A stretch of 64,000 bases of DNA from Desulfuromonadales bacterium (GTDB taxonomy: Bacteria; Desulfobacterota; Desulfuromonadia; Desulfuromonadales; BM103): positions 62,001-126,000 of the forward strand of contig JAQYVZ010000003.1 in the NCBI GenBank assembly GCA_030145205.1, given 5' to 3'. A model generated the notes under the pieces. The model worked only from the letters and a program-made list of their open reading frames with translations, did not search any database and had not been told where the DNA came from. Positions within the stretch are counted from its first letter, which is position 1; each line of letters opens with the position of its first letter. The translations under genes were made by a program, and so were the position numbers. Below, one piece after another: positions 4,510 to 64,000 of the stretch.

Positions 4510-7200
4510 ATGAGCCTAGAAAGTAACATCAGCCCGAAATGGCTGGATGAACAGTATCGTCTGTGGAAAGAAAACCCCGACGCACTTGATGAACAGTGGC
4601 AGGCATTTTTCAAGGGATTCGATCTTGCCCAGGAAACGGAGTTTGGTGACCGCGACCTGGCGGCGCGCAACTCAGCCGTCGATTCCCTGATCTACCGCTA
4701 CCGCGACCTCGGTCACCTGATGGCCTGTACCGATCCGCTCTCCCCCTGTCCCGCAGAGAATCCACTCCTTGCGCTGCAAGCCTTCGACCTGGACGAGCAA
4801 GATCTCGACACCACCTTCTTTCCGCTGCGTTTTCCGCAGCAGAGCGCGACCCTCAAAGAGATTATCGCCCTGCTGCGAGACACCTACTGCCGATCGGTCG
4901 GTGTCGAATTCATGCATATTCAAAACCCACTGGATCGTCAGTGGCTGAAAGACCGCATGGAGGCGACCCGCAATCGACCGGCCCTGACCCGCGACGAAAA
5001 GCTGGCCATCCTTGCCAAGCTGCAGGAAGGGACTCAGTTTGAAGCCTTTTTGCACAAGAAATTCCTCGGTCAGAAGCGCTTTTCTCTGGAAGGGGGCGAG
5101 GTCCTGATCCCGCTGCTCGAATCGCTGGTCGAAAAATCTGCGGAGTTGGGCGTTTCCGACCTGGTGATGGGCATGTCGCATCGCGGTCGCCTGAACGTGC
5201 TGGCCAACATTTTCACCAAGCCTTTTGAGAACATTTTTGCCGAATTCAAGGATAACCTGGAGCTGGCTTTTGTCGGTGAGGGGGACGTCAAGTACCACAA
5301 GGGGTATTCCGTCGACAGGACCATGGCGTCCGGCAAAACGATCCATCTCAGCCTGGCCGCCAACCCGAGTCACCTGGAAGCCATCGACCCGGTGGTCATT
5401 GGCAAATGCCGGGCTCGTCACAGCAATTACGGCCCCGGCGGCAGACAGCGCGTCCTGCCCGTACTGATCCATGGTGATGCGGCCTTTGCCGGCCAGGGGA
5501 TCATACCCGAGGTCCTCAACCTGTCACAGCTGGATGGCTACCAGTCGGGCGGCACTATCCATATTGTCGTCAACAACCAGATCGGCTTCACCACTGACCC
5601 GGCCCACGCCCGCTCGACGCTGTACGCAACCGATGTGGCAAAAATGCTGATGATCCCGATCTTCCACGTCAACGGTGAGGACCCGGAAGCGGCGGTCCAC
5701 GCCACCCAGCTGGCCCTGGAATACCGACAGAAGTTCCGCAAGGATGTTGTCATCGAGGTGATCTGCTATCGCCGCCACGGCCACAACGAGGGAGACGAAC
5801 CCTTCTTCACCCAACCGCTGATGTATGAGAAGATCCGCCGGCGCCCACCCCTGCATGAAGTTTATGCCTCCAGATTATTGGAGGAGGGTCTTGACCCACA
5901 GGCAATCGCGCAGCAGCTCGACGCCATTCGGCAACGTCTGGAAACGGCCTACACCTCCGAACCACAGGGTCAGGAGGATATCGGATTCCAGGCGAAGTGG
6001 AGCGGCTTTCAGCGCGAGTATACGCCGAAGGGGCCAGACACACAGGTGCCCGCAGAAAAGCTGCGGACCCTGTCGGCTCGCTTAGCTGCCATCCCCCCCG
6101 GCTTTGCCGCCCATCCGAAGATCGCCAAGCTGCTGCAAAAACACCAGGAGACGGTTGAACAGGGCAATGAGATCAACTGGGCGACGGCAGAAGCCCTGGC
6201 GTTTGCCTCCCTGCTGACCGAGGGACATCCGGTACGACTCTCCGGCCAGGATTCCCGCCGCGGAACGTTCAATCACCGCCATTCGACCCTGGTCGACCAA
6301 AACAATGGGCGGCTGCATGTTCCGCTGGCGTTCCTGGAGCCGGGTCAGGCGTTCATGCAGGTTTACGACAGCATGCTTTCTGAAGTTGCCGTGCTCGGCT
6401 TTGAGTATGGCTATTCCCTGGAAGAACCAAACGGCTTGACCATCTGGGAAGCTCAGTTCGGCGACTTCGCGAACGGCGCCCAAGTGATTATCGACCAGTT
6501 TCTGGCCGGCAGCGGCACCAAATGGGACCGCTTTAGCGGCCTGACCCTCTACCTGCCGCACGGCTACGAAGGGCAAGGGCCAGAACATTCCAGTGCGCGG
6601 ATCGAACGCTACCTGCAACTCTGCGCCGACCACAACCTGCTGGTTGCCAACCCAAGCACACCGGCCCAGTTGTTCCACTTGCTCCGCCGTCAAGTGCTCT
6701 TGCCTTTCCGGCGACCACTGATCATTTTTACCCCGAAAAGCCTGCTCCGCCACCCGCGTTGCAGCAGTCAGCTGGACGCTTTCTGCAAAGAAGGCTTCCA
6801 AGTGTTCCGCCCTGCTGTGACGCCATCTGAGGAGGCAAAAACCCTTCTGTTCTGCTCGGGCAAAATTGTCTACGACCTGCAAGCCCAGATCGACGAGGAG
6901 CAGCGCACCGATATAGCAGTGCTGTGCGTCGAACAGCTCTACCCGTTCCGGGAGGATCTGTTGCGTGAGCAACTGGCCCGCTTCTCCAGGGTCGAACACT
7001 ACACCTGGGTTCAGGAAGAACCGGAGAACATGGGTGCCTGGAGTTTTGTGCGCCCGCAGCTGACCCGCTTACTCGGTCATGAACCGACCTATGTCGGCCG
7101 CCCCGCTTCGGCGACGACTGCAGTCGGCTCGCACCGCCGCCACCAGCAGGAGCAGAAGCAACTGGTTCAAACCGCCCTTTCCCTGCAGAAGGATGCCTAA
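4510..7200 (+). CDS. sucA: 2-oxoglutarate dehydrogenase E1 component
   Basis: Thiamine-diphosphate-dependent decarboxylase of the 2-oxoglutarate dehydrogenase complex (TCA cycle, cytoplasm). At 896 residues it is close to the usual 900-930. Visible landmarks are: the N-terminal E2-binding segment (SPKWLDEQYRLWKENP); LVMGMSHRGRLNVLAN; LSLAANPSHLEAIDPVV; the ThDP/Mg motif HGDAAFAGQGI...NLSQL; NNQIGFTT; and in the C-terminal transketolase half EYGYSLEEP and EAQFGDFANGAQV. ATG is at 4510 with AGGA upstream, behind the promoter at 4426. sucB begins immediately after the stop, and lpdA follows. This is a complete oxidative complex in an apparent anaerobe; see findings. Confidence 0.96.
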   Translation: MSLESNISPKWLDEQYRLWKENPDALDEQWQAFFKGFDLAQETEFGDRDLAARNSAVDSLIYRYRDLGHLMACTDPLSPCPAENPLLALQAFDLDEQDLDTTFFPLRFPQQSATLKEIIALLRDTYCRSVGVEFMHIQNPLDRQWLKDRMEATRNRPALTRDEKLAILAKLQEGTQFEAFLHKKFLGQKRFSLEGGEVLIPLLESLVEKSAELGVSDLVMGMSHRGRLNVLANIFTKPFENIFAEFKDNLELAFVGEGDVKYHKGYSVDRTMASGKTIHLSLAANPSHLEAIDPVVIGKCRARHSNYGPGGRQRVLPVLIHGDAAFAGQGIIPEVLNLSQLDGYQSGGTIHIVVNNQIGFTTDPAHARSTLYATDVAKMLMIPIFHVNGEDPEAAVHATQLALEYRQKFRKDVVIEVICYRRHGHNEGDEPFFTQPLMYEKIRRRPPLHEVYASRLLEEGLDPQAIAQQLDAIRQRLETAYTSEPQGQEDIGFQAKWSGFQREYTPKGPDTQVPAEKLRTLSARLAAIPPGFAAHPKIAKLLQKHQETVEQGNEINWATAEALAFASLLTEGHPVRLSGQDSRRGTFNHRHSTLVDQNNGRLHVPLAFLEPGQAFMQVYDSMLSEVAVLGFEYGYSLEEPNGLTIWEAQFGDFANGAQVIIDQFLAGSGTKWDRFSGLTLYLPHGYEGQGPEHSSARIERYLQLCADHNLLVANPSTPAQLFHLLRRQVLLPFRRPLIIFTPKSLLRHPRCSSQLDAFCKEGFQVFRPAVTPSEEAKTLLFCSGKIVYDLQAQIDEEQRTDIAVLCVEQLYPFREDLLREQLARFSRVEHYTWVQEEPENMGAWSFVRPQLTRLLGHEPTYVGRPASATTAVGSHRRHQQEQKQLVQTALSLQKDA

Positions 7201-18191: not shown

Positions 18192-18588
18192 GGCCGAAGA
18201 AAATCGTAAGCCGGGTTCTGTTCCCCGGCGAAGTTGCCTCCGCAGGGGCGGTGATCATTCCTCTAGGGCTGCCGTTGCCGACAGCCTCAAGCGACCTGAC
18301 CCGGGGACTTCGGGCGGGCAACCCTCAAACGTCCCCCTATTTGGTCTTGCACCGGATGGGGTTTACCGAGCTGCCGGCGTCACCGCCGGCACTGGTGAGC
18401 TCTTACCTCACCCTTTCACCCTTACCCACCTTCGCCGAAGCTTTGATGGGCGGTCTGCTTTCTGTGGCACTTTCCCTGGGGTCGCCCCCGGTCCCCGTTA
18501 AGGACCATCCTGCCCTGTGGAGCCCGGACTTTCCTCCCCCCACCACCGCCGAGGCGACGGCGGGCGGCGATCACCCGATTTTCTCCGA
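18192..18588 (-). ncRNA. rnpB: RNase P RNA, bacterial type A
   Basis: Catalytic RNA that matures tRNA 5' ends. On the minus strand the universally conserved block GAGGAAAGTCCGGGCTCC (P4 5' side) lies at about 18514-18537. The 3' conserved block with CCCGGCTTA is near 18205-18215. The terminal helix P1 is formed by GGAGAAAATCG at the 5' end and CGATTTTCTTC at the 3' end. Loops such as GGTAAGAGCTCACC and ACCAAATAGGGGG are also recognisable. About 397 nucleotides, normal for type A. The exact ends are uncertain by about 5 bases. Protein-like frames across it are spurious. Confidence 0.95.
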
Positions 18589-18602: not shown

Positions 18603-19313
18603 CTAGTCCGGTTTTTCGATATACAGCAAACGGTTGCAATGCGGGCAGGACTGCACATCCTTGACCACATACAGGCTATTGAACTGCTGCGGAGGCAGAT
18701 GCATGTGGCAACCGAGGCAAGCCCCGCCTTTCGCCTCAACCACCGCAAGACCGTTGCGACGCTCCAACAGCAGCTGGTAGCGCTTGCGCAGACTGACCGG
18801 CAATTGCTCGAGCAGCTCTTCACGCTGGCTGCCCATGGTGTCGAGGCGTCCGTCAAGCTCAGCCAGTTCGGTGTCGATCTCACCGCGCTTGGCGTCTGCC
18901 GCCTCGCTCAGACCGGCCAGCTCACCATCTTTCTCGTCCTTGTCGGCACCGAGAGCGGAGAGTTCACTGTCCTTCGCGCCAATCTGCTCAGTCAATTCCT
19001 TGACAAGCTTCTTGGCCATATCGACTTCCTTGAGGATCGCAACATACTCCTTCTGAGTCTTGATCTGCGGCAGGCGCTCCTCGGAGCGGGTAATATTCCC
19101 TTCCTCGATGGTCAGAGCCTCCGTCAGTTCGCTGCGTTGCTCGTCAAGACCGTTCATCTCGGTCGTCAGACTGTCCACCATGGCCTGGATGCGATCCAGT
19201 TCGCCCTGCAACAGGCCCTGTTCTCCGAGAAATTTCTGGCGTTGCTCAAGAAGAGTGTGCCGATCCCGATCCAGAGCCTGCAAATCTTTCAGCAACTGCA
19301 ATTTTTCCTGCAC
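18603..19313 (-). CDS. Coiled-coil protein with C4 zinc ribbon
   Basis: 236 residues. The first about 175 form a long antiparallel coiled coil rich in Glu, Leu and Lys. The C-terminus has a zinc ribbon CLGCHMHLPPQQFNSLY...CPHCNRLLYI. This is the zf-RING_7/DUF164 family, common in Deltaproteobacteria, Chlamydia (CdsZ) and Actinobacteria. In chlamydia it aids type III secretion; elsewhere the role is unknown, with RNA or nucleoid binding suggested. Start is GTG with GGGAGG upstream. It lies between the nif3-like gene and rnpB in the same direction. Confidence 0.88.
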   Translation of the reverse strand: MQEKLQLLKDLQALDRDRHTLLEQRQKFLGEQGLLQGELDRIQAMVDSLTTEMNGLDEQRSELTEALTIEEGNITRSEERLPQIKTQKEYVAILKEVDMAKKLVKELTEQIGAKDSELSALGADKDEKDGELAGLSEAADAKRGEIDTELAELDGRLDTMGSQREELLEQLPVSLRKRYQLLLERRNGLAVVEAKGGACLGCHMHLPPQQFNSLYVVKDVQSCPHCNRLLYIEKPD

Positions 19314-19385: not shown

Positions 19386-20510
19386 TCAAACTGTTCGAAA
19401 TGGGTCTACTGCACCGTCGTAATCTTGAAAATTCGCGTCCCAATCATTCTGCTCCGCGGCATGATTCAAAAGCCGGCTGAGGTTCCGTGCCATCAGCGCT
19501 TCGGTTGCAAAGTGGCCGGCATCCACCAAAGCCATCCCGAGTGCTTCCGCTGCCTTGGCCTCATGATACTTAACATCGCCCGTCACCAGGACATCGGCAC
19601 CAAAGCGATGCGCGACCTGAATCAGACTGGCGCCACTTCCGCCGCATAAAGCCACTTTACGCACCGAACGATCTGCCGACCCGACAAGCCGGACACTATC
19701 GCACCCCAAGGCTCCACGAACCTGTTCTGCAAAAGCCTGGAGCGAACACGCCTCCGTCAACTTGCCGATCCGGCCAAGGCCGGCTCCGGCGCGCTGGTTC
19801 TCCAGCGGAATCAGATCGTAAGCGACTTCCTCATACGGGTGCACCTTAAGCAAACGGGTCAGCACCTTGCTCAAACGCGGCCGTGGCACGATCAGTTCCA
19901 ACCGCACCTCTTCAACTTCTTCGCGTTTGCCGATCTGGCCGATAAATGGCGAGCTGCCTTCTCCCGGCCGGAAGGTTCCGGTTCCAGACTGACGAAAGGA
20001 GCACTGGTCGTACTGGCCGACATGTCCGGCACCGGCGGCAAACAGGGCTTCAGCAACTTCAGCTTCGTGGCCGGACGGCACGTGCACGACCAATTTCAGG
20101 AAATGTCCTGGTGCCGGTACGAGAGGTGCCGCATCCTGGATGTCCAGAAGGTCGCCCAGCCAGCTGTTCAAACCGGGCTGCGCGGAGTCGAGATTGGTGT
20201 GAGCGCTGAGGATAACGAGATCATTCTGAATGGCGTGGAACAGGATACGACCGGTTTCGTCCTCCGGTGTCAGGCGCTTGATGCCACGAAACAACAGCGG
20301 GTGATGCGTGATCAGTACCTGGGCTCCGGCTTCGCGAGCCGCCTGAACAGCTTCCATGTCGGGATCGAGGGCAACCATTCCCTGGCTGAAGCGTGCTGAC
20401 GGGTCCCCAACCTGCAACCCGACATTGTCCCACTCTTCTGCCAGTTCAGGCGGAAAGAATGTGTTCAAAAGTCCGATCAGGTCGTGTATGCGAGGGGTTA
20501 TCTTGCCCAT
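19386..20510 (-). CDS. Nif3-like dinuclear metal-centre protein (long form)
   Basis: 374 residues. The N-terminal half begins PRIHDLIGLLNTFFPPELAEEWDNVGLQVGD and has metal ligands in VLITHHPLLFRGIKRL and SAHTNLDSA. The C-terminal half has VALCGGSGASLI, TGDVKYHEAKAAEALGMALVDAGHFATE with further His/Glu ligands. About 100 residues between them (about 130-235) form the extra PII/CutA-like domain seen in the YqfO type, longer than E. coli YbgI. Proposed roles include GTP cyclohydrolase I-like or general metal hydrolase functions, unproven. ATG is preceded by AGGTGGC. It lies downstream of the tRNA and terminator. Confidence 0.92.
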   Translation of the reverse strand: MGKITPRIHDLIGLLNTFFPPELAEEWDNVGLQVGDPSARFSQGMVALDPDMEAVQAAREAGAQVLITHHPLLFRGIKRLTPEDETGRILFHAIQNDLVILSAHTNLDSAQPGLNSWLGDLLDIQDAAPLVPAPGHFLKLVVHVPSGHEAEVAEALFAAGAGHVGQYDQCSFRQSGTGTFRPGEGSSPFIGQIGKREEVEEVRLELIVPRPRLSKVLTRLLKVHPYEEVAYDLIPLENQRAGAGLGRIGKLTEACSLQAFAEQVRGALGCDSVRLVGSADRSVRKVALCGGSGASLIQVAHRFGADVLVTGDVKYHEAKAAEALGMALVDAGHFATEALMARNLSRLLNHAAEQNDWDANFQDYDGAVDPFRTV

Positions 20511-43740: not shown

Positions 43741-43863
43741 GTCTTTATCCAGAGTGGCGGAGGGATTGGCCCGACGATGCCACAGCAACCGGTCTGCTGA
43801 AGCGACAGCATCAGCAGATGCCAGGTGCTAATTCCTACCCCCGAATGGGGGAGAGATGAGGAC
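43741..43863 (+). promoter_or_regulatory. SAM-I (S-box) riboswitch aptamer
   Basis: All S-box landmarks occur in order: P1 5' strand GTCTTTATC, then AGAG, GGAGGGATTGGCCCGACGA, GCAACC, a P3 hairpin (GTCTGCTGA...TCAGCAGA), AGGTGCTAATTCCTACCC and the P1 3' strand GATGAGGAC. The two P1 strands pair over nine positions with two G-U. It senses S-adenosylmethionine and lies above a terminator and metX. Confidence 0.95.
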
Positions 43864-55968: not shown

Positions 55969-56011
55969 GGCCCGGACAACCTGTCACGCACTGGTTGTCC
56001 GGGCCGTTTTT
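55969..56011 (+). terminator. Terminator between convergent lipoprotein and ext genes
   Basis: Thirteen-base arms (GGCCCGGACAACC and GGTTGTCCGGGCC) pair perfectly over an 11-base loop, followed by G and five U residues. It abuts the last ext gene's stop from the other side. Confidence 0.9.
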
Positions 56012-56834
56012 ATGGCTGGACTTCGGGCGGAACGGCCTCCGGCTGCAGCTCGCGGCCCAGGCGCTCAAACTCGGGCGGCTTCAAAGAGAGCGGCGGCATC
56101 TGAGTCAGTTTACGAATCTTGCGCGGGTTCTTTAACCACTTTTCAAGGTTTTCAATCGTCCAGCGCTGCCCGTCATCGCCAAAGTTCTGGAGATAGTATT
56201 GGGTCAACAATCCCGACAGGTTCGGCCCGATGAGTCCGGTTCCAAGCCCGCCATAGCGTTCCGTCAGGGCGCGATGGCACTGGCCGCACTGTTTTTCGAA
56301 TTCAAGCTGTTCTAAAACACTTTCACCCTCGAAATGTACCACCGCGGGCCGCTCCTGCTCAACCGCACCCTTGCGGCGCGCCCCCGCCAGGATGGCGTTG
56401 ACCAGTTCAATCCGCTGCGCTTCCGAGAAATGAAATTCAGGCATAAACAGCACCGGGTATCGGATGGACTCCTCCAACTCCTCCGGCGAGGCATACTCTG
56501 GAGCCAGGTCGAGATCAGCGGCTAGGCGGTTGCCTTTGCCGTCACTGGCATGGCACCTGCGACAAGCATAATTCTTCAGGTGCTCTTCTCCCTGACGGGC
56601 GACCGGGTTGTTTTCAAGTGTAAAGGCGGCATAACGACCGGCAATCAAGCCGCTATGAGCGATATCGACACGTGTCGTTCCGAGACGACCGGCGTGACAG
56701 TCGACACAACCGCCCTCAGCGACATAATGCACCGGGTGACATTCGAGGCAGGAGTTTTGTGTGGCAGGCGCTTCTGCGGCGCACAAGGGCACCGGCAACA
56801 GCAACGCGCCTAGAAGCCAAAGACAAACGACCAA
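56010..56834 (-). CDS. extS: Tetrahaem c-type cytochrome of the ext-type bc complex (ExtS position)
   Basis: 274 residues. Signal peptide VVCLWLLGALLLPVPLCA, then four CXXCH sites: CLECH, CVDCH, CRRCH, CGQCH. The last two sit in cytochrome c-like contexts (RRCHASDGKGNRL, CGQCHRALTERYGGLGTGLIGPNLSG, with late methionines in MPPLSL as possible axial ligands). It is the final gene of the minus-strand ext-type operon and starts at TTG, overlapping the subunit IV gene by 25 bases. I infer that it takes electrons from the Rieske/cytochrome b core. The symbol rests on gene order, since no lipobox is seen. Confidence 0.8.
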   Translation of the reverse strand: MVVCLWLLGALLLPVPLCAAEAPATQNSCLECHPVHYVAEGGCVDCHAGRLGTTRVDIAHSGLIAGRYAAFTLENNPVARQGEEHLKNYACRRCHASDGKGNRLAADLDLAPEYASPEELEESIRYPVLFMPEFHFSEAQRIELVNAILAGARRKGAVEQERPAVVHFEGESVLEQLEFEKQCGQCHRALTERYGGLGTGLIGPNLSGLLTQYYLQNFGDDGQRWTIENLEKWLKNPRKIRKLTQMPPLSLKPPEFERLGRELQPEAVPPEVQP

Positions 56835-57223
56835 TTTTCACCCCGAAAATACATAGCGATCACCGTCAACAGGACGATGCCGCAGAAACTGAGCAGAGCG
56901 AGCAGGTTGACGGTGCGTTGATCGGCCGGCAACCACTGCGCCTTATCAGCCGGACGACTAATCGGCAGCCAGGGCAGCAGCAGAAACACCAGCCCCAGGC
57001 CGAGAATCAGATAGATCATGGCGTTCGAATAACTGACCAGTTCCTGAGTCCACATCAGGAACCAGGCGGACTTCGACGGATTCGGCACTCGGCCGATGTC
57101 AGCCGGTCCCTGCAAGGGTGCCTGCACGAAAAACGCAAAAAACAGCAGACACAACAGAGCCACGGCAAAAGCGACCTTAACGATGTTGAAAAAATGTGGG
57201 CTGGCCTTAACGTAATCGCTCAT
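56810..57223 (-). CDS. extQ: Cytochrome b subunit IV-like protein (ExtQ position)
   Basis: 137 residues, three helices (VKVAFAVALLCLLFFAFFVQAPL, AMIYLILGLGLVFLLLPWL, LLALLSFCGIVLLTVIAMYF). It matches the C-terminal half of cytochrome b as in b6c complexes, with the quinol-site region in NPSKSAWFLMWTQELVSYSN, though the classical PEWY is replaced by AWFL. It starts at an ATG overlapping the cytochrome b stop (ATGA). Part of the quinol-oxidising core with the b6 and Rieske subunits. Confidence 0.82.
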   Translation of the reverse strand: MSDYVKASPHFFNIVKVAFAVALLCLLFFAFFVQAPLQGPADIGRVPNPSKSAWFLMWTQELVSYSNAMIYLILGLGLVFLLLPWLPISRPADKAQWLPADQRTVNLLALLSFCGIVLLTVIAMYFRGENWSFVFGF

Positions 57224-57855
57224 AGGTAAGGTAAGACCCCCTTGTCTTTGCGAATCCGGTAAAAATGCAGCATGCAAAGAATCAACATGCAGAGCGGTAT
57301 GACCGCAATGTGCAGAACGTAGAAACGCACCAGTGACATCGGTTGACCGACGTCATCCGGCACCAGGAAGCTGCGCAGCAACTCACCGAAGGGCAGAGTT
57401 GCCAACAGGTTCATACCGGTTTGGGTCGCCCACAAGGCCAACTGATCCATCGGCAGCAGGTAGCCGGTATAGCCTTCGAACAGCGCCAGACAGAGGATCA
57501 CAAAACCGATGATCCAGTTGAGCTCGCGCGGCTTGCGATACGCCCCGGTCAACAACACCCGCAGCGTGTGCAGGAACAGCAGAATCAGGAAGGTGTTGCC
57601 GGCCAACCGGTGCAGGTTGCGGACATACCACCCGCCCGGCACGGAGTTCTCCAGATAGAGGATCGACGCGAACGCCCGCTCGGTCGACGGCTGGTAATGA
57701 AACAGCAGCAAGGCCCCCGACAGGATTAGAACCAGGAAGGCCGTAAACGCCAAACCGCCCAGGCAGAAGGTATAGGTCAGGCGCAGGTTGCTGCGCAGGA
57801 CCACCCGCGGGAACAGGTGCCTGATGAATTCCTTGAGAAAATCGTCTTCTTTCAT
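57220..57855 (-). CDS. extP: Cytochrome b6-type dihaem subunit (ExtP position)
   Basis: 211 residues with four helices. Haem-ligand histidines are in NLHRLAGNTFLILLFLHTLR (spacing 14) and FYVLHIAVIPLCMLILCMLHFYR (spacing 15). The 14/15 pattern is that of cytochrome b6 rather than mitochondrial-type b (14/14). GYTGYLLPMDQLALWA is the conserved quinol-site region. The gene overlaps both neighbours by four bases (Rieske and subunit IV), so the three are made together. Carries electrons from menaquinol across the inner membrane. Confidence 0.93.
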   Translation of the reverse strand: MKEDDFLKEFIRHLFPRVVLRSNLRLTYTFCLGGLAFTAFLVLILSGALLLFHYQPSTERAFASILYLENSVPGGWYVRNLHRLAGNTFLILLFLHTLRVLLTGAYRKPRELNWIIGFVILCLALFEGYTGYLLPMDQLALWATQTGMNLLATLPFGELLRSFLVPDDVGQPMSLVRFYVLHIAVIPLCMLILCMLHFYRIRKDKGVLPYL

Positions 57856-58247
57856 ACCATTACGACCAGGGAATCCCCCTGCTCCTCTACCTCCAGGCGA
57901 TGCAACGGTTTATCGGACGGCCCCTTCAACACGGCACCCTCCCGATCGAACACGCTGCCATGGCATGGGCAGACCAGATTCCGCGGGGTGACGTTGACGG
58001 TACAGCCGAGGTGCGTGCAGACCAGGCTCAAGGCGTAGATTTCTTCTTCGCGACGAAACACAGCCACGCGGGACTCACGGTAGACCAGTGCCCCCCGCGG
58101 CGGAATATCGCTCTTTTTGACAGTCAGGAGCGGTTTTTTCTGAGATTCGTCCCCGGGGACCAGGAACCGCCAGACCAGCAGGCCCCAGGCACCGACCAGA
58201 ACTAGTCCCTTGAGGAATCGTCGACGCGATCGACCAGAGTTTTCCAT
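57852..58247 (-). CDS. extO: Rieske iron-sulfur protein (ExtO position)
   Basis: 131 residues. The twin-arginine signal SRRRFLKGLVLVGAWGLLVWRF also acts as a membrane anchor. The 2Fe-2S ligands are in CTHLGC (about 86-91) and CPCHGS (about 104-109). The protein is short, with a compact Rieske fold. Its start overlaps the upstream 9-haem gene by 46 bases. It accepts the first electron from quinol at the periplasmic side and passes it to the c-type cytochromes of this cluster. Confidence 0.93.
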   Translation of the reverse strand: MENSGRSRRRFLKGLVLVGAWGLLVWRFLVPGDESQKKPLLTVKKSDIPPRGALVYRESRVAVFRREEEIYALSLVCTHLGCTVNVTPRNLVCPCHGSVFDREGAVLKGPSDKPLHRLEVEEQGDSLVVMV

Positions 58248-59443
58248 TTCGCTACATAAGCTTTCGTATACGCCACATTTTTCGCCGTGATCAACGCGTA
58301 ACGCGGCAAGTCCACAAAGGAGCCGTTGCTGACCCTCTGACCAGCCTGACTCCAGAAGGAACTCAGACCCAGGCCATCCAGATCAATCCGGTAGATCCGC
58401 TCCTCCTCTTTCTCCATCAGATAGCGGCGGCGGTTATCATGGCAATTATCGCACATGACAGTCCCACTACGCACCGTGTGCGGAAAAAAAGCCTTCCATT
58501 CCGCCTTCAGTAGACGATTTTCGACCGCAGGCGTGCCACCGCCGCGCAGATCGGTGTAATAAGCAATGAATTGCGGGCGGATCGGGCTGATGCGTCCGGT
58601 TGCGTTCACGCCCAGCGGCGGAGCGTTCTGTTGCCTGAGATAGGCGCTGACCAGATATTCACTTTGCTCCTTCGCCTGCAGGCGGTAGCGTTTGAGGACC
58701 TCCTCCTCGCGACCAGTGCGCAGGTAGAAGGTGCCATACTCCTGCGGCGCCCAGGCCGCATGACACGCGTAGCATTCCATGCCGGTCATGTGGGCGGCAA
58801 TCCCATGTTCGATCACCTGCGGGTCGGGTTGGTGACAATCGACACAGTCCCGCGAGGCCTTCTGCCCGTGCAACAGGCTCTGCATCGAATGGCAGTCCAT
58901 GCACTCCATGCCGAGTTCAGCATGAAGGTCCGGCCGCATCTTCAGGGAGGTCTCTCCCAGGAATTCCGCCCCACGCTGATAGCGGGGGTGGTCCTCGCGG
59001 GGAGCCATGCCGAGATACTCCCGGCCGACAAAGTACCCTTTGTGACAGCCCAGGCATTGATTCTGCGTCGCACGCGCGATCCGGTGGCCGTCGCCACCGT
59101 GGCAGTCGAGACAATCGGAGACATGGCAGCTGCCGCAGTTGTTGTTAAAAAACTGCGGGTCAAATGCCTCAAAGCTGTCGGCCACAAACTGTTTCTCCGC
59201 GAGCCGGGTCGTCATCGCCTGATCGAAAATCTGATCGTAGCCGACGTGACAACCGGTGCATCCGTCAGCCCGCGTGGCAAGCGACGACGGCCGCGGCGAG
59301 GCAGCAACGTCAGCACCATGACAGTCTGCACAGGCCAGCTCGGCATGCACCCCGGCAAGAGGCGACGGTCGACTCTCGGTCGCAGCAAACGCTCCGTTAA
59401 GGCTGAGCAGAAGCAGCGCGATTGAGACAAGTATCCAGCGCAT
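58202..59443 (-). CDS. extN: Nonahaem c-type cytochrome (ExtN position)
   Basis: 413 residues. Signal peptide RWILVSIALLLLSLNGAFA, then nine CXXCH sites: CADCH, CTGCH, CGSCH, CLDCH, CLGCH, CMDCH, CVDCH, CYACH, CDNCH. The C-terminal about 120 residues have no haem. Periplasmic and probably soluble. I chose the ATG at 59443 for its signal peptide; the frame runs further into extM, which it overlaps by 47 bases. AAGGAA lies upstream. Likely electron relay between the bc core and ExtM/ExtKL. The symbol is by position. Confidence 0.82.
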   Translation of the reverse strand: MRWILVSIALLLLSLNGAFAATESRPSPLAGVHAELACADCHGADVAASPRPSSLATRADGCTGCHVGYDQIFDQAMTTRLAEKQFVADSFEAFDPQFFNNNCGSCHVSDCLDCHGGDGHRIARATQNQCLGCHKGYFVGREYLGMAPREDHPRYQRGAEFLGETSLKMRPDLHAELGMECMDCHSMQSLLHGQKASRDCVDCHQPDPQVIEHGIAAHMTGMECYACHAAWAPQEYGTFYLRTGREEEVLKRYRLQAKEQSEYLVSAYLRQQNAPPLGVNATGRISPIRPQFIAYYTDLRGGGTPAVENRLLKAEWKAFFPHTVRSGTVMCDNCHDNRRRYLMEKEEERIYRIDLDGLGLSSFWSQAGQRVSNGSFVDLPRYALITAKNVAYTKAYVAKWKTLVDRVDDSSRD

Positions 59444-61250
59444 TATAGTCGAGTTCCTTCTGGTAAATCGGGTCTTTCGGATCGTCATGACAGACCAGAC
59501 AGAGATTGACGGCCAGAACCTTCTTAACTTCCACGGCATTGAACGGCCGCGACTCTTCACGGGTAATCGCCGAATAAGCCCGCACCCGCCCGTACTGCAT
59601 GGTCAGATAACCATCCAGCGGTTTGTCTTCCGATTTTTCGCAAATCAGGGTCGCCTCGATGCTGTTATCTTCCACCACGTGCTGACCGAAGCCAAGGAAA
59701 GCCGGATTGGCGTGGCACTCGGCACAGCCGATCGCTTTCGGTCCGGTGTTGTGTCCGAAAAACGGAGCAAAGCGCAACTGCGGGCGCCCCTTGAAAAGAG
59801 TGACATATTCATCCAGAACTTTTTTGCCCTGGGGATCAATCACCGTCACAAAAGTCTGGCAGCCTGGCGTCACCGTTGAAACTTTCCCGCGCTGGTTCAA
59901 CGCCAGCGGGAAGGGGTAAAGCATCCGGTAATCTTCAGACTCACTGAACCGTCCTGGCGTCTTAACGCCCTTGATGAAGTCGGTTCCCAATTCTCCCTGA
60001 TCATATTCGGTATGACAACCGTAGCACTGTGCCACGCTGCGCGAGTGGCACGCATAACACTCCATCCGCTCATGACCGACAACGGTGTGCTCCGGCGTGC
60101 CGGTGATCACCTTGCTCTCGTGCAGTTTGCCATCACGTTTGCCCTGCACCCAGATTTTTTCGCCTTCTTGGAACACATTCGAATACTTGCGGCCCTTGGA
60201 TGTCAGCACCATGGCGTCACCCTGCTGCATCCGCCGCGGGTAGTGCGCCGTTTCGCGCAGAGCCTCATCATTCTCCCGACTGATCACGGCGACTTGCGGC
60301 GACACCGTGGCGCTACCATGGCAATCCTCGCAGGCAATTTCAGTCTGCAGGTACATATTTTCATAGGCATAGCCGTCACCCATCACATCCCGCGAGGTAT
60401 GACAGTCGATGCACTCCATCCCCTTTTCATGATGGATGTCTGCCTGGATGCGGGTAATATTACGGGCGCCGCCAATCACTCTCGGTCCGGGGCGCCCCTG
60501 GCGAGTCGGCACCTCGCTGGTATTGCCGTCATTCCAACCCTCGTACGACAAGGCAATCCGACCGCTGCGGTTGTGACAGCGCATGCAGACAGTGTTATCC
60601 GGCAAAACGGCCATGGCGTGGCTGGCCGAGTGAGGCCACTTGCCCTTGACCGTCCGGTCAGCGCCCTGGTAGGTCGTATTGTCGTTATAGGGAAAATGGC
60701 AGGCCGCGCAACCGGAAGCATGACTGCCGCTCCAGATTCGGTTGGACTCAATACCGATATGGCACAGGGAGCAGAACTTGCGGTAAAGCTCGCCGGACAG
60801 GTTGTCGAGTTGGGTGACACTCTTCAATTCCAGTGCTTCGCCGCCAGCGTCATGCACTGCTTCAGGCCGGGTCGCATAGAGAGTGTCATCCTCCCCCTCC
60901 CAGGTGGCCTGGGTGTTCTTGATCATGCCGGTATTAGTGTACATCAGGTTGGCGCGCACCCGTTCCAGCTGGTACGGGTGGCATTTGCCGCAGGTTTTCT
61001 GCCAATACTTCGGATCTGCCGGGTTTTTCGGGCCGAACATGCCGCGATGCGAAGCCTGCTCAGCTGCAGCCAGAGGATCGCCGCCGTGGCAGGAGACACA
61101 CTCCGGGTGCGTCGCGGAGGCAGGCTCCAACCCCTGATGGCACTCGGCACAGGTTGAGCCGTCGCTCTGCTGTCGGCTGCAACCCGCAACACCCAGCAAC
61201 AAGACCACCAGAGCCAATACACATACTGCTGTGAAAATCCTGATGTTCAA
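59397..61250 (-). CDS. extM: Dodecahaem c-type cytochrome lipoprotein (ExtM position)
   Basis: 617 residues. Lipoprotein signal VLALVVLLLGVAGC (cysteine 24). Twelve CXXCH sites: CAECH, CVSCH, CGKCH, CSLCH, CAACH, CMRCH, CIDCH, CEDCH, CYACH, CYGCH, CAECH, CLVCH. The spacing (long haem-free stretches near 125-165 and 410-500) resembles the large multihaem proteins related to OTR and ExtA-like cytochromes. It is preceded by a terminator-like hairpin after extKL, so it may be expressed less. Likely lipid-anchored periplasmic relay. The symbol is by gene order. Confidence 0.85.
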   Translation of the reverse strand: MNIRIFTAVCVLALVVLLLGVAGCSRQQSDGSTCAECHQGLEPASATHPECVSCHGGDPLAAAEQASHRGMFGPKNPADPKYWQKTCGKCHPYQLERVRANLMYTNTGMIKNTQATWEGEDDTLYATRPEAVHDAGGEALELKSVTQLDNLSGELYRKFCSLCHIGIESNRIWSGSHASGCAACHFPYNDNTTYQGADRTVKGKWPHSASHAMAVLPDNTVCMRCHNRSGRIALSYEGWNDGNTSEVPTRQGRPGPRVIGGARNITRIQADIHHEKGMECIDCHTSRDVMGDGYAYENMYLQTEIACEDCHGSATVSPQVAVISRENDEALRETAHYPRRMQQGDAMVLTSKGRKYSNVFQEGEKIWVQGKRDGKLHESKVITGTPEHTVVGHERMECYACHSRSVAQCYGCHTEYDQGELGTDFIKGVKTPGRFSESEDYRMLYPFPLALNQRGKVSTVTPGCQTFVTVIDPQGKKVLDEYVTLFKGRPQLRFAPFFGHNTGPKAIGCAECHANPAFLGFGQHVVEDNSIEATLICEKSEDKPLDGYLTMQYGRVRAYSAITREESRPFNAVEVKKVLAVNLCLVCHDDPKDPIYQKELDYNALDTCLNRAASAQP

Positions 61251-61455: not shown

Positions 61456-62799
61456 CTATTTGCTCACCGTAACCGTCTTGGTGAACTCCTGCCAGAGGAA
61501 GGGGTCACTCTTCATGTTGCCGTACGGCAGGTACCAGAGTTTCACATTAATATTGAGCGTATCGTCGAGCAGTTGACGCTCAATGATCCGGCCATTGTCA
61601 TCTTCGACATCTTCCGTGTAGAAAGGAATCTCGAAGTGTTCTTCGACCTCTTTGCCCGGAGGCAGGCCGGTGTCGTTGATGATGCCACTCTTCTCGTAAG
61701 GACCGCGACCCATTTTGTCGCCGCGGGCAAACTTCTGAGGCATCGGCATGTAGATAATTTCTTCGCTGTAAAGCTCGTCATCTTCGCTATCTGTTGCACT
61801 GACCGACAGAACCAGTCGGTTGGGGGTCGGTCAGCCATCAGGGATGGCGTGGCCGGTGCGGTTGGTCATCTTGACCTTGACGATCGCCTTAGGTGTGACC
61901 AGACGCCCGTCACGCCAGTTGGTACCGTAAGCTTCGACTTCGAAATCAACAGCAGCATCCGACATGACTTTAGAGCGGTAGCTCTGCATGTCGTGACCGA
62001 GGCCGCTCTTCTCCATGTGACATTCCTGGCAGGTCTCGGTGCCGCCTTCAGCGGTGTAGGCCCACAGGTAGCTGCCGTATGCAGTAGCGCACTGGGTCGG
62101 GTTGTCGAGTTCCAGATTGGGGCCGAGGCCGTGGCATTGACCACAGAGAATCGACTCGCTCATGATCGGGCTGACCTTGATTTCCGGATAGTTCTCGTCT
62201 TCGTGCTCACCCTCGGTCGCACCGTAGACTACGCCAGCCTGCGGGTAACCGTCGGTCCACTTGTGGGTGATCGCCATGCGGTTGTGGCAGACCAGGCAGT
62301 TGATGTTCAGGCTCAGCAGGGTTTCCTTGAGCTCCCCGAACTTCTCGTCGTCCTGATTGCGGTAGGCGTCCATCAGGCCGTAAATGTCGCCGATGAATTC
62401 CTTGGCAACGGCATCGGTGGCATCTGCCAGCTGCGGCAGGTGGCACTTGGCACAGCCCATCAGGTGTTCAACTTCAACATCTTCAGGTTTCTCAGCGCCG
62501 GAGAAGGCCCAGGAGAGGACACCGTTTTCCAGGGCGGTTTTCATGGTCGCAGCTGTCCGGCCGGTCCCGTACACGGGACGGGAATGGGCGGAGTTGGACC
62601 AGTCATCGTGAATTTCTTCGTGGCAGTCGATACAGCCGGTCGAGTCGTACATGGCGACCAGCTCTTCAATCGTGGTGGCCTTGCCCTTGGTGGCGGCGAT
62701 AGTGCCGTCCTTGCCGACTCCCGCGGCAAACGCCGGGGTGATCGCCAGGGCAATGGTCGCCACGCAGGCCAAAATCGTGGCCAGCGTAACTTTCTTCAT
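61456..62799 (-). CDS. extKL: Selenocysteine-containing pentahaem cytochrome (ExtKL)
   Basis: Read through an in-frame TGA, the gene gives 447 residues with Sec at 323. Signal peptide KKVTLATILACVATIALAITPAFA; five CXXCH sites (CIDCH, CAKCH, CLVCH, CGQCH, CQECH) all lie before the TGA. The TGA follows the conserved-looking TGHAIPDG and is followed by PTPNRLVLSVSATD. The downstream 124 codons stay open and protein-like (YMPMPQKFARGDKMG..., WYLPYGNM). A stem-loop starts at the TGA itself. Known biology: ExtKL affects selenite and tellurite reduction in Geobacter. Inference: Sec323 is a redox residue in the C-terminal domain. The alternative is a recent nonsense mutation or sequencing error. Confidence 0.85.
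61800..61833 (-). promoter_or_regulatory. Putative bacterial SECIS hairpin starting at the in-frame TGA
   Basis: On the minus strand the 34 bases beginning with the TGA form an outer stem TGACCGAC/GTCGGTCA (8 perfect pairs), an inner stem AACC/GGTT and a GACT apical loop beginning with G. Stem plus apical loop just behind the UGA is what SelB needs. The UGA-to-loop distance is about 13 bases, slightly shorter than usual. Confidence 0.65.
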
Positions 62800-62863: not shown

Positions 62864-63091
62864 TTAGCAGCCCTGCAGCATGTCCATGCCACCACCCTTT
62901 TTGGGTGCAGCAGCGGCGTCAACGTCCAGAGTAACCTTGGCGCCCTTCTTGATCTTGGCAACTTTACCCTTGGTGATTTCAACGGTAACTTTGTCGCCCT
63001 TGATCTTGGTGACCTTGCCTTCGAAGTCAGCTGCGAAAGCAACGCTGGTGAACATCATCATAACGGCGAGCAGTGCGATCATCTTTTTCAT
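62864..63091 (-). CDS. extJ: Small periplasmic protein (ExtJ position)
   Basis: 75 residues. Signal peptide KKMIALLAVMMMFTSVAFA, then about 55 residues with a short beta-like repeat (FEGKVTKIKGDKVTVEITKGKVAKIKKGAKVTLDV), reminiscent of a small OB/SH3 fold, and a Gly/Met tail ending in LQGC with a terminal cysteine. GGAGAAAAATC precedes the ATG. Lies between the porin and extKL genes. Its function is unknown; the lone C-terminal cysteine is odd and could pair with a partner or bind Se/Te compounds. Confidence 0.75.
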   Translation of the reverse strand: MKKMIALLAVMMMFTSVAFAADFEGKVTKIKGDKVTVEITKGKVAKIKKGAKVTLDVDAAAAPKKGGGMDMLQGC

Positions 63092-63175: not shown

Positions 63176-64000
63176 TTAGAAAATCAGCTGCAGCTGAGCA
63201 GTCAGAGTATCAATGTCTTCTACGGCATCGTCTTCGTCGTAGTCAAGCTGGGAGTACTCCATGGTCAGCTTCAGGTTCTGGCCGCGCAGGTAGTAGTTGA
63301 AACCAACACCGATCCAGTCAACTTCCTGGTCGTAGACGTCGCCAAGCTTGGCATACGACCAGCTCTCGGAGCGGGCGAACAGCTGCAGAGGCATGTTCGG
63401 GAACATGTAACCAACCTTGACGTAGCCACCGTTCCGCTCGCCGTTAAAGCCAATCACACCGGCTTCCGGATCGGAAGTGTCATTCTGGTAAGCATCGTCC
63501 AGGTCGTAGTCAACATAGGCCGTGGAGAAAGTGAAGGTACCGACATCTTCAACCGGGTACTCGGCAAAGAGGTCAATCGTCCAGGCGCTGTAATCAATGT
63601 CATCAGCGCCAACCGTGGCGACTTCGTTTTCAAACTGGTAAGCAGCACCGATGGTCAGCACCTGCTTTTTGCCCATGTAAGTACCCTTGTAGCCGTAGCC
63701 CTTCTCGGGATCGAGCAGGGAGACGTGGGCGCGGGCCGAGTAGCGGATGTTCGAGTCGGTCGAAGCATCAGCACCGTTCATGGCGTCGACGCGATACTGG
63801 AACTTGTTGTCGAACAGGTTGCCCCACAGAGCCACACCCTTGTCGCGGGTCGAGACGAAGGGAGCGCGGAGCAGCACGGAGCGATCCAGGGTCAACGGCA
63901 TTTCACAAGCTTCCAGGTTTTCACGGGTCAGGCTGTACTTGAACTTACCAACCCAGAGGTTGGCGCTGTCGTTCAGCTTGAAGCGCATCACGGCGTCGAG
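63176..64000 (-). CDS. extI: Outer-membrane porin, C-terminal part (ExtI position; cut by window edge)
   Basis: At least 274 residues, open to the window edge. Alternating strands with aromatic ends (LWVGKFKYSLTRENLEA, VALWGNLFDNKFQYRVDAMNGAD, IDLFAEYPVEDVGTFTFSTAYVDYDL, GYVKVGYMFPNMPLQLFARSESWSY) and a C-terminal LQLIF ending in phenylalanine: a phosphate-selective-porin-like barrel. In the Geobacter ext cluster ExtI is a putative selenite/tellurite porin. The N-terminus and signal peptide are outside the window, so internal ATG/GTG codons near 63991 are not the start. Confidence 0.82.
   Translation of the reverse strand, partial: LDAVMRFKLNDSANLWVGKFKYSLTRENLEACEMPLTLDRSVLLRAPFVSTRDKGVALWGNLFDNKFQYRVDAMNGADASTDSNIRYSARAHVSLLDPEKGYGYKGTYMGKKQVLTIGAAYQFENEVATVGADDIDYSAWTIDLFAEYPVEDVGTFTFSTAYVDYDLDDAYQNDTSDPEAGVIGFNGERNGGYVKVGYMFPNMPLQLFARSESWSYAKLGDVYDQEVDWIGVGFNYYLRGQNLKLTMEYSQLDYDEDDAVEDIDTLTAQLQLIF

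Follow-up and report, generated by a model that had tools for sequence, protein, structure and literature searches.

An in-frame UGA in the multihaem cytochrome gene extKL of a Desulfuromonadales bacterium is very probably read as selenocysteine

Does the UGA in the middle of a multihaem cytochrome gene of a Desulfuromonadales bacterium end a protein, or does it encode selenocysteine (Sec) within a longer one? The question is raised by a minus-strand gene in the stretch of DNA analysed here, 64,000 nucleotides of contig JAQYVZ010000003.1, hereafter the window. The original prediction described one frame at 61456-62799 that is interrupted by a lone TGA directly after the motif TGHAIPDG, and translation bears out both the coordinates and the description: the frame comprises 448 codons with a single internal stop and a terminal TAG at 61456-61458, and 124 more codons stay open 3' of the TGA. 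Judged from sequence comparison, the gene, extKL, very probably encodes a presumably periplasmic pentahaem c-type cytochrome in which UGA 323 is decoded as Sec.

That ExtKL is a selenoprotein is already known. The Geobacter sulfurreducens genes GSU2937 and GSU2936 were proposed to form a novel selenoprotein in which the Sec position is exclusively TGA; in the accessible part of that paper, neither a SECIS nor non-Sec homologues had been found, and two separate proteins were allowed as an alternative (Fujita et al. 2007, PMC1914089). The name ExtKL, within extHIJKLMNOPQS, appears in the accessible text of a later study (Jahan et al. 2018, PMC5877670), and the corresponding text of a 2018 paper on Geobacter conduits states that a TGA for a predicted selenocysteine splits ExtK from ExtL (PMC6148476). 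ExtKL is also counted among selenoproteins in a table of a 2026 review (PMC13188914), and a paper on cable bacteria, as far as its text was available, describes pentahaem ExtKL homologues related to cytochrome c552 (PMC11976967). ExtKL is thus not new, because the family is curated, has been in print since 2007 and has a relative in the PDB.

The identity of the gene product is well defined. The read-through protein matches NCBIfam model NF040886, named "multiheme c-type cytochrome (seleno)protein ExtKL", with 613.7 bits (cut-off 250) over positions 7-422 of a profile of 423, that is, nearly end to end, and its two halves alone match adjoining stretches of the model (7-314 and 317-422). Five CXXCH motifs lie at residues 56-60, 116-120, 168-172, 219-223 and 257-261. 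The ATG is preceded by a ribosome-site-like stretch, AAGGAAGG. The features of the locus are collected in Table 1.

Table 1. Positions, within the window, of extKL, the elements around its in-frame TGA and the neighbouring genes
Feature	Position	Strand	Basis or remark
extS, c-type cytochrome lipoprotein	56010..56834	-	NF040971, 348.4 bits
extQ, membrane protein	56810..57277	-	NF040970, 211.1 bits
b-type cytochrome, ExtP-like	57220..57855	-	NF040969, 229.6 bits, below cut-off 290
Rieske-type protein, extO position	57852..58247	-	best match NF045928, 55 bits, below cut-off 250
extN, multihaem cytochrome	58202..59560	-	NF040967, 658 bits; NF040968 (labelled ExtO), 661.6 bits
extM, multihaem cytochrome	59397..61250	-	NF040943, 1094.3 bits
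extKL	61456..62799	-	NF040886 match: 447-residue read-through pentahaem c-type cytochrome, five CXXCH, C-terminal beta-rich domain
SECIS-like hairpin ACCGAC-UGGUUCU-GUCGGU	61802..61820	-	starts 13 nt after the U of UGA
In-frame TGA, codon 323, probable Sec	61831..61833	-	directly 3' of TGHAIPDG; homologue column mostly TGA
His317 of the TGHxIPDG-Sec loop	61849..61851	-	conserved in 72/72, six residues before Sec
Cys237, outside the CXXCH motifs	62089..62091	-	conserved in 72/72
extJ, small protein	62867..63091	-	NF040942, 70 bits, cut-off 52.5
extI porin, C-terminal part	63176..63991	-	NF040900, 458.2 bits, profile from position 119

The setting of the gene agrees with its identity. Among the cluster members within the window, ExtI, ExtJ, ExtM, ExtN, ExtQ and ExtS all exceed their NCBIfam cut-offs, and the N terminus of ExtI lies beyond the window end. 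The Rieske-type protein encoded beside ExtN has no match to an Ext model, and the ExtN cytochrome scores similarly against the ExtN model and against NF040968, whose description names the iron-sulfur subunit ExtO. The ExtO label of NF040968 may be misplaced. The original prediction also spoke of a selenium-respiration operon, which is supported only in part: without ExtI, the reduction of selenite and tellurite is impaired, whereas ExtKL itself figures in the accessible text only as the subject of a preliminary study (Jahan et al. 2018, PMC5877670), and extHIJKL contributes to metal reduction as well; for its absence, a table of the partly accessible conduits paper gives 66.3% of the wild-type value on Fe(III) citrate (PMC6148476).

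Several properties of the frame itself point to a coding sequence that continues past the TGA. When all places in the window at which a TGA joins two same-phase open stretches, each of at least 30 codons, were ranked by the coding score of the weaker half, the extKL TGA came first of 296 pairs. Three others from the best 12 of these 296 were rejected as selenoprotein candidates on the layout of the open reading frames (ORFs): at 4672 and 5524 the frames run antisense to an ORF of 896 residues, and at 19386 the TGA closes an ORF of 374 residues, a further ORF beginning at 19313. In comparisons of the window's extKL with four relatives (L060, L062, L063 and L010), nucleotide differences peak at third codon positions on both sides of the TGA; for L060 they number 30, 16 and 154 at codon positions 1, 2 and 3 before it and 15, 8 and 49 after it. 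In L060 and L062, the closest two of the four, synonymous changes exceed other changes both before and after the TGA; in L063 and L010, which are more distant, they do not.

Matches over the NF040886 cut-off were found by profile search in 40 of 395 genomes of the phylum. Taken alone, 50 places pass the cut-off, of which 43 have exactly one TGA, six are stop-free and one has a TAA. A total of 76 frames came from the cut-off-passing places, from two weaker ones (L058 and L059) and, among titled genome records, from 23 loci; removal of two identical rows left 74 aligned, and two rows without a residue at the Sec column reduced these to 72, a set that includes near relatives, same-genome paralogues, the distant L058 (below the family cut-off) and the fragment L059. 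At the codon-323 column, 66 of the 72 have TGA, four have Cys, all of them with TGT, one has Ile and one Val. The original prediction had expected UGA or Cys here and had regarded unrelated residues as evidence against Sec; 70 of the 72 have one or the other. The six non-Sec copies are spread over five genomes. Of these, G027, G281, G289 and G327 also carry a Sec copy; in the fifth, G203, no Sec copy was seen, and its second copy is cut by a contig end. Since one Ile and one Val copy exist, the Sec residue can be lost. Two arrangements of these copies may be recorded: tandem ExtKL copies without TGA at 938-3641 of L042 (genome G027), the Sec column holding Ile in the first copy and Cys in the second, and tandem copies without TGA in L022 (genome G203), with Val in the first. 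In-frame stops other than TGA were also seen, a TAA at codon 79 of the Cys copy L057 (genome G289) and a TAG at codon 364 of L064, which are either sequence errors or broken genes; the L057 copy may be broken.

The alternative that survives best, which we nevertheless consider very improbable, is that the TGA is a true stop, so that ExtK ends at 322 residues and ExtL is a separate product of a conserved operon. It has been published as a possibility, in the accessible part of PMC1914089, and it would accommodate the fact that all five CXXCH motifs lie in ExtK alone. Against it, the four Cys and two Ile or Val homologues continue the frame through the column; the structural model described below has, five residues past the TGA, the start of a new strand within one and the same beta-rich domain; NCBIfam models a single protein; and the relative in the PDB is a single chain of 450 residues. 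Moreover, no ATG, GTG or TTG occurs in frame 3' of the TGA before 61749, and no clear ribosome site could be seen by eye at that position, which agrees with the earlier observation that the downstream half has no ribosome site of its own.

For decoding as Sec, the genome has the machinery that the original prediction named as a check (selA, selB, selC and selD), and neither selB nor a tRNA-Sec is missing. In a profile search of the window's genome, selA, selB and selD adjoin on one contig (C248), each over its cut-off, and a tRNA-Sec with anticodon tca is present on another (C98) according to ARAGORN, with an Rfam score of 76.8. A second place exceeds the Rfam gathering score for tRNA-Sec with 48.2 bits and is a tRNA-Trp according to ARAGORN. 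The selD gene (L084, from about 1492) carries an in-frame TGA of its own near its start; therefore, going by this codon, the selenophosphate synthetase of the genome is probably a selenoprotein itself.

A candidate SECIS hairpin lies directly 3' of the UGA, and its pairing is better than the encoded protein requires when compared with codon-usage-weighted synonymous recodings that keep the protein. With the U of UGA counted as zero, the hairpin of the window spans nt 13-31 and recurs in nine other sequences, whereas in the other 55 of the 65 Sec sequences tested (L059 was omitted as too short) a different hairpin, at nt 18-37, has the best average support. The window-type hairpin has 6.00 of 6 Watson-Crick pairs (n = 10; recoded mean 3.10, maximum 4.00), a full score that arises by choice because the ten sequences were picked for containing the motif, and the other hairpin, in a 7-pair version at nt 17-38, has 4.80 of 7 (n = 55; recoded mean 3.62, maximum 3.89). 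When the sets were cut down to 20 and 4 less closely related sequences, a step that controls relatedness only in part and leaves the window-type set of 4 with the same motif-selection bias, both registers rank first of 265 hairpins, with z of 8.6 and about 6. None of 400 recodings of the thinned sets reaches the observed pairing of either hairpin; this count alone is not specific, because a few other hairpins also gave 0/400, at lower z (4.4-4.6). Neither of the two hairpins, labelled A and B, is seen in the six non-Sec homologues: hairpin A has 2.17 of 6 pairs against 1.79 after recoding (as many or more in 58 of 400 recodings) and hairpin B 1.83 against 1.73 (187 of 400). In a scan of all 265 hairpins in this non-Sec set, in which the L057 row is one codon out of register, the best z is 3.12 and lies elsewhere. 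Folding energies of single sequences agree less sharply, with a mean z of -1.13 relative to recoded sequences, p ≤ 0.05 in 17 of 66 and p = 0.057 for the window. No SECIS family was matched in an Rfam gathering search of the window, and a search of 61700-61900 with E up to 10 returned only a chance-level match to an lncRNA and no SECIS family. Two RNAs elsewhere in the window exceed their Rfam gathering scores, a SAM riboswitch at 43742-43862 (+) and an RNase P RNA at 18192-18586 (-).

These results also bear on whether the UGA might be read as another residue, by tryptophan insertion or near-cognate read-through. The open frame alone would fit such a reading, but the full Sec machinery in the genome, the complete lack of Trp at the column (0/72) with Cys as the commonest replacement, and the failure of the two hairpins to appear in the six non-Sec homologues leave it with an even smaller chance than two separate proteins. 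A nonsense mutation or sequencing error in a pseudogene, of which a lone stop in an intact frame has the look when fresh, is refuted by the recurrence of this TGA across many genera, in 66 of the 72 homologues, and by the constraint that persists 3' of it, and we give it practically no weight. Selenocysteine at codon 323, as the original prediction had it, is thus well supported by the comparative evidence from the TGA column, the Sec machinery and a hairpin that goes beyond synonymous recoding.

What the selenol might do can be considered on an AlphaFold model built with 42 sequences (mean pLDDT 86.4, pTM 0.81). The model is helical where the CXXCH motifs lie and continues as a beta-rich domain from about residue 284, and residue 323 lies in a loop between strands 300-313 and 328-336 of this C-terminal domain. 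Outside the CXXCH motifs, His72 (71/72), His269 (72/72) and His317 are conserved, and His317 is a possible haem ligand. Cys237, located where a low-confidence stretch of the model ends, is a possible redox partner of Sec323; it is also kept in the Ile and Val copies, which speaks against partnering with Sec as its only role. In the mechanism we propose, SelB and Sec-tRNA(Sec) would bind the hairpin and insert Sec into the loop six residues after His317, where the selenol may be a redox-active group that is fed by the haem chain and possibly paired with Cys237. ExtKL would then relay electrons, with the b-cytochrome/Rieske part of the inner membrane at one end and the ExtI porin at the other, and these electrons might serve the reduction of selenite and tellurite or of metal oxides. 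A bolder version is doubtful in our judgement: a Sec323-Cys237 selenenylsulfide charged by the haems would make ExtKL a true reductase that works through selenium instead of only a wire, and the SECIS register would have switched between lineages while Sec stayed in place.

In summary, the two lineage-specific SECIS-like hairpins and the few Cys, Ile and Val copies are likely to be small additions to what is known, a statement made relative to the accessible parts of the papers cited here. They provide evidence on two points left open in the accessible text of PMC1914089, namely the RNA element for Sec insertion and the existence of non-Sec homologues. A selenocysteine haem protein ties selenium biochemistry to extracellular electron transfer, a tie that is already on record, and treating every TGA as a stop splits genes such as extKL in two.

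Among proteins with known structures, the PDB contains a "Multiheme cytochrome c selenoprotein (MccSep)" (9wt8, 9wta and 9wtb) and its U325A mutant (9wt9 and 9wtc), names that suggest Sec in MccSep; a literature search by the names "MccSep" and "cytochrome c selenoprotein" found no paper on it. MccSep is a distinct protein, yet it matches the window's ExtKL over residues 7-446 with 665 bits in phmmer, and at the window's Sec column it has X in one chain sequence and Ala in the other. The MccSep entries are absent among the best 50 Foldseek matches of the model (PDB releases up to 8 April 2026). The best of these is 5ze8, a cytochrome c552 with five haems from Thermochromatium tepidum (E 3.8e-16; query-based TM-score 0.52), the remaining ones among the matches listed being partial or of low TM-score. 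Cytochrome c552 resembles ExtKL in fold, whereas the sequence similarity is weak (18% identity), and in a profile alignment it has Ala at the Sec column within the motif PHAMPTGA. From GSU2937-GSU2936 of G. sulfurreducens and the NF040886 family, no difference in kind was found: the window's ExtKL shares with them the five CXXCH motifs and the surrounding ext cluster.
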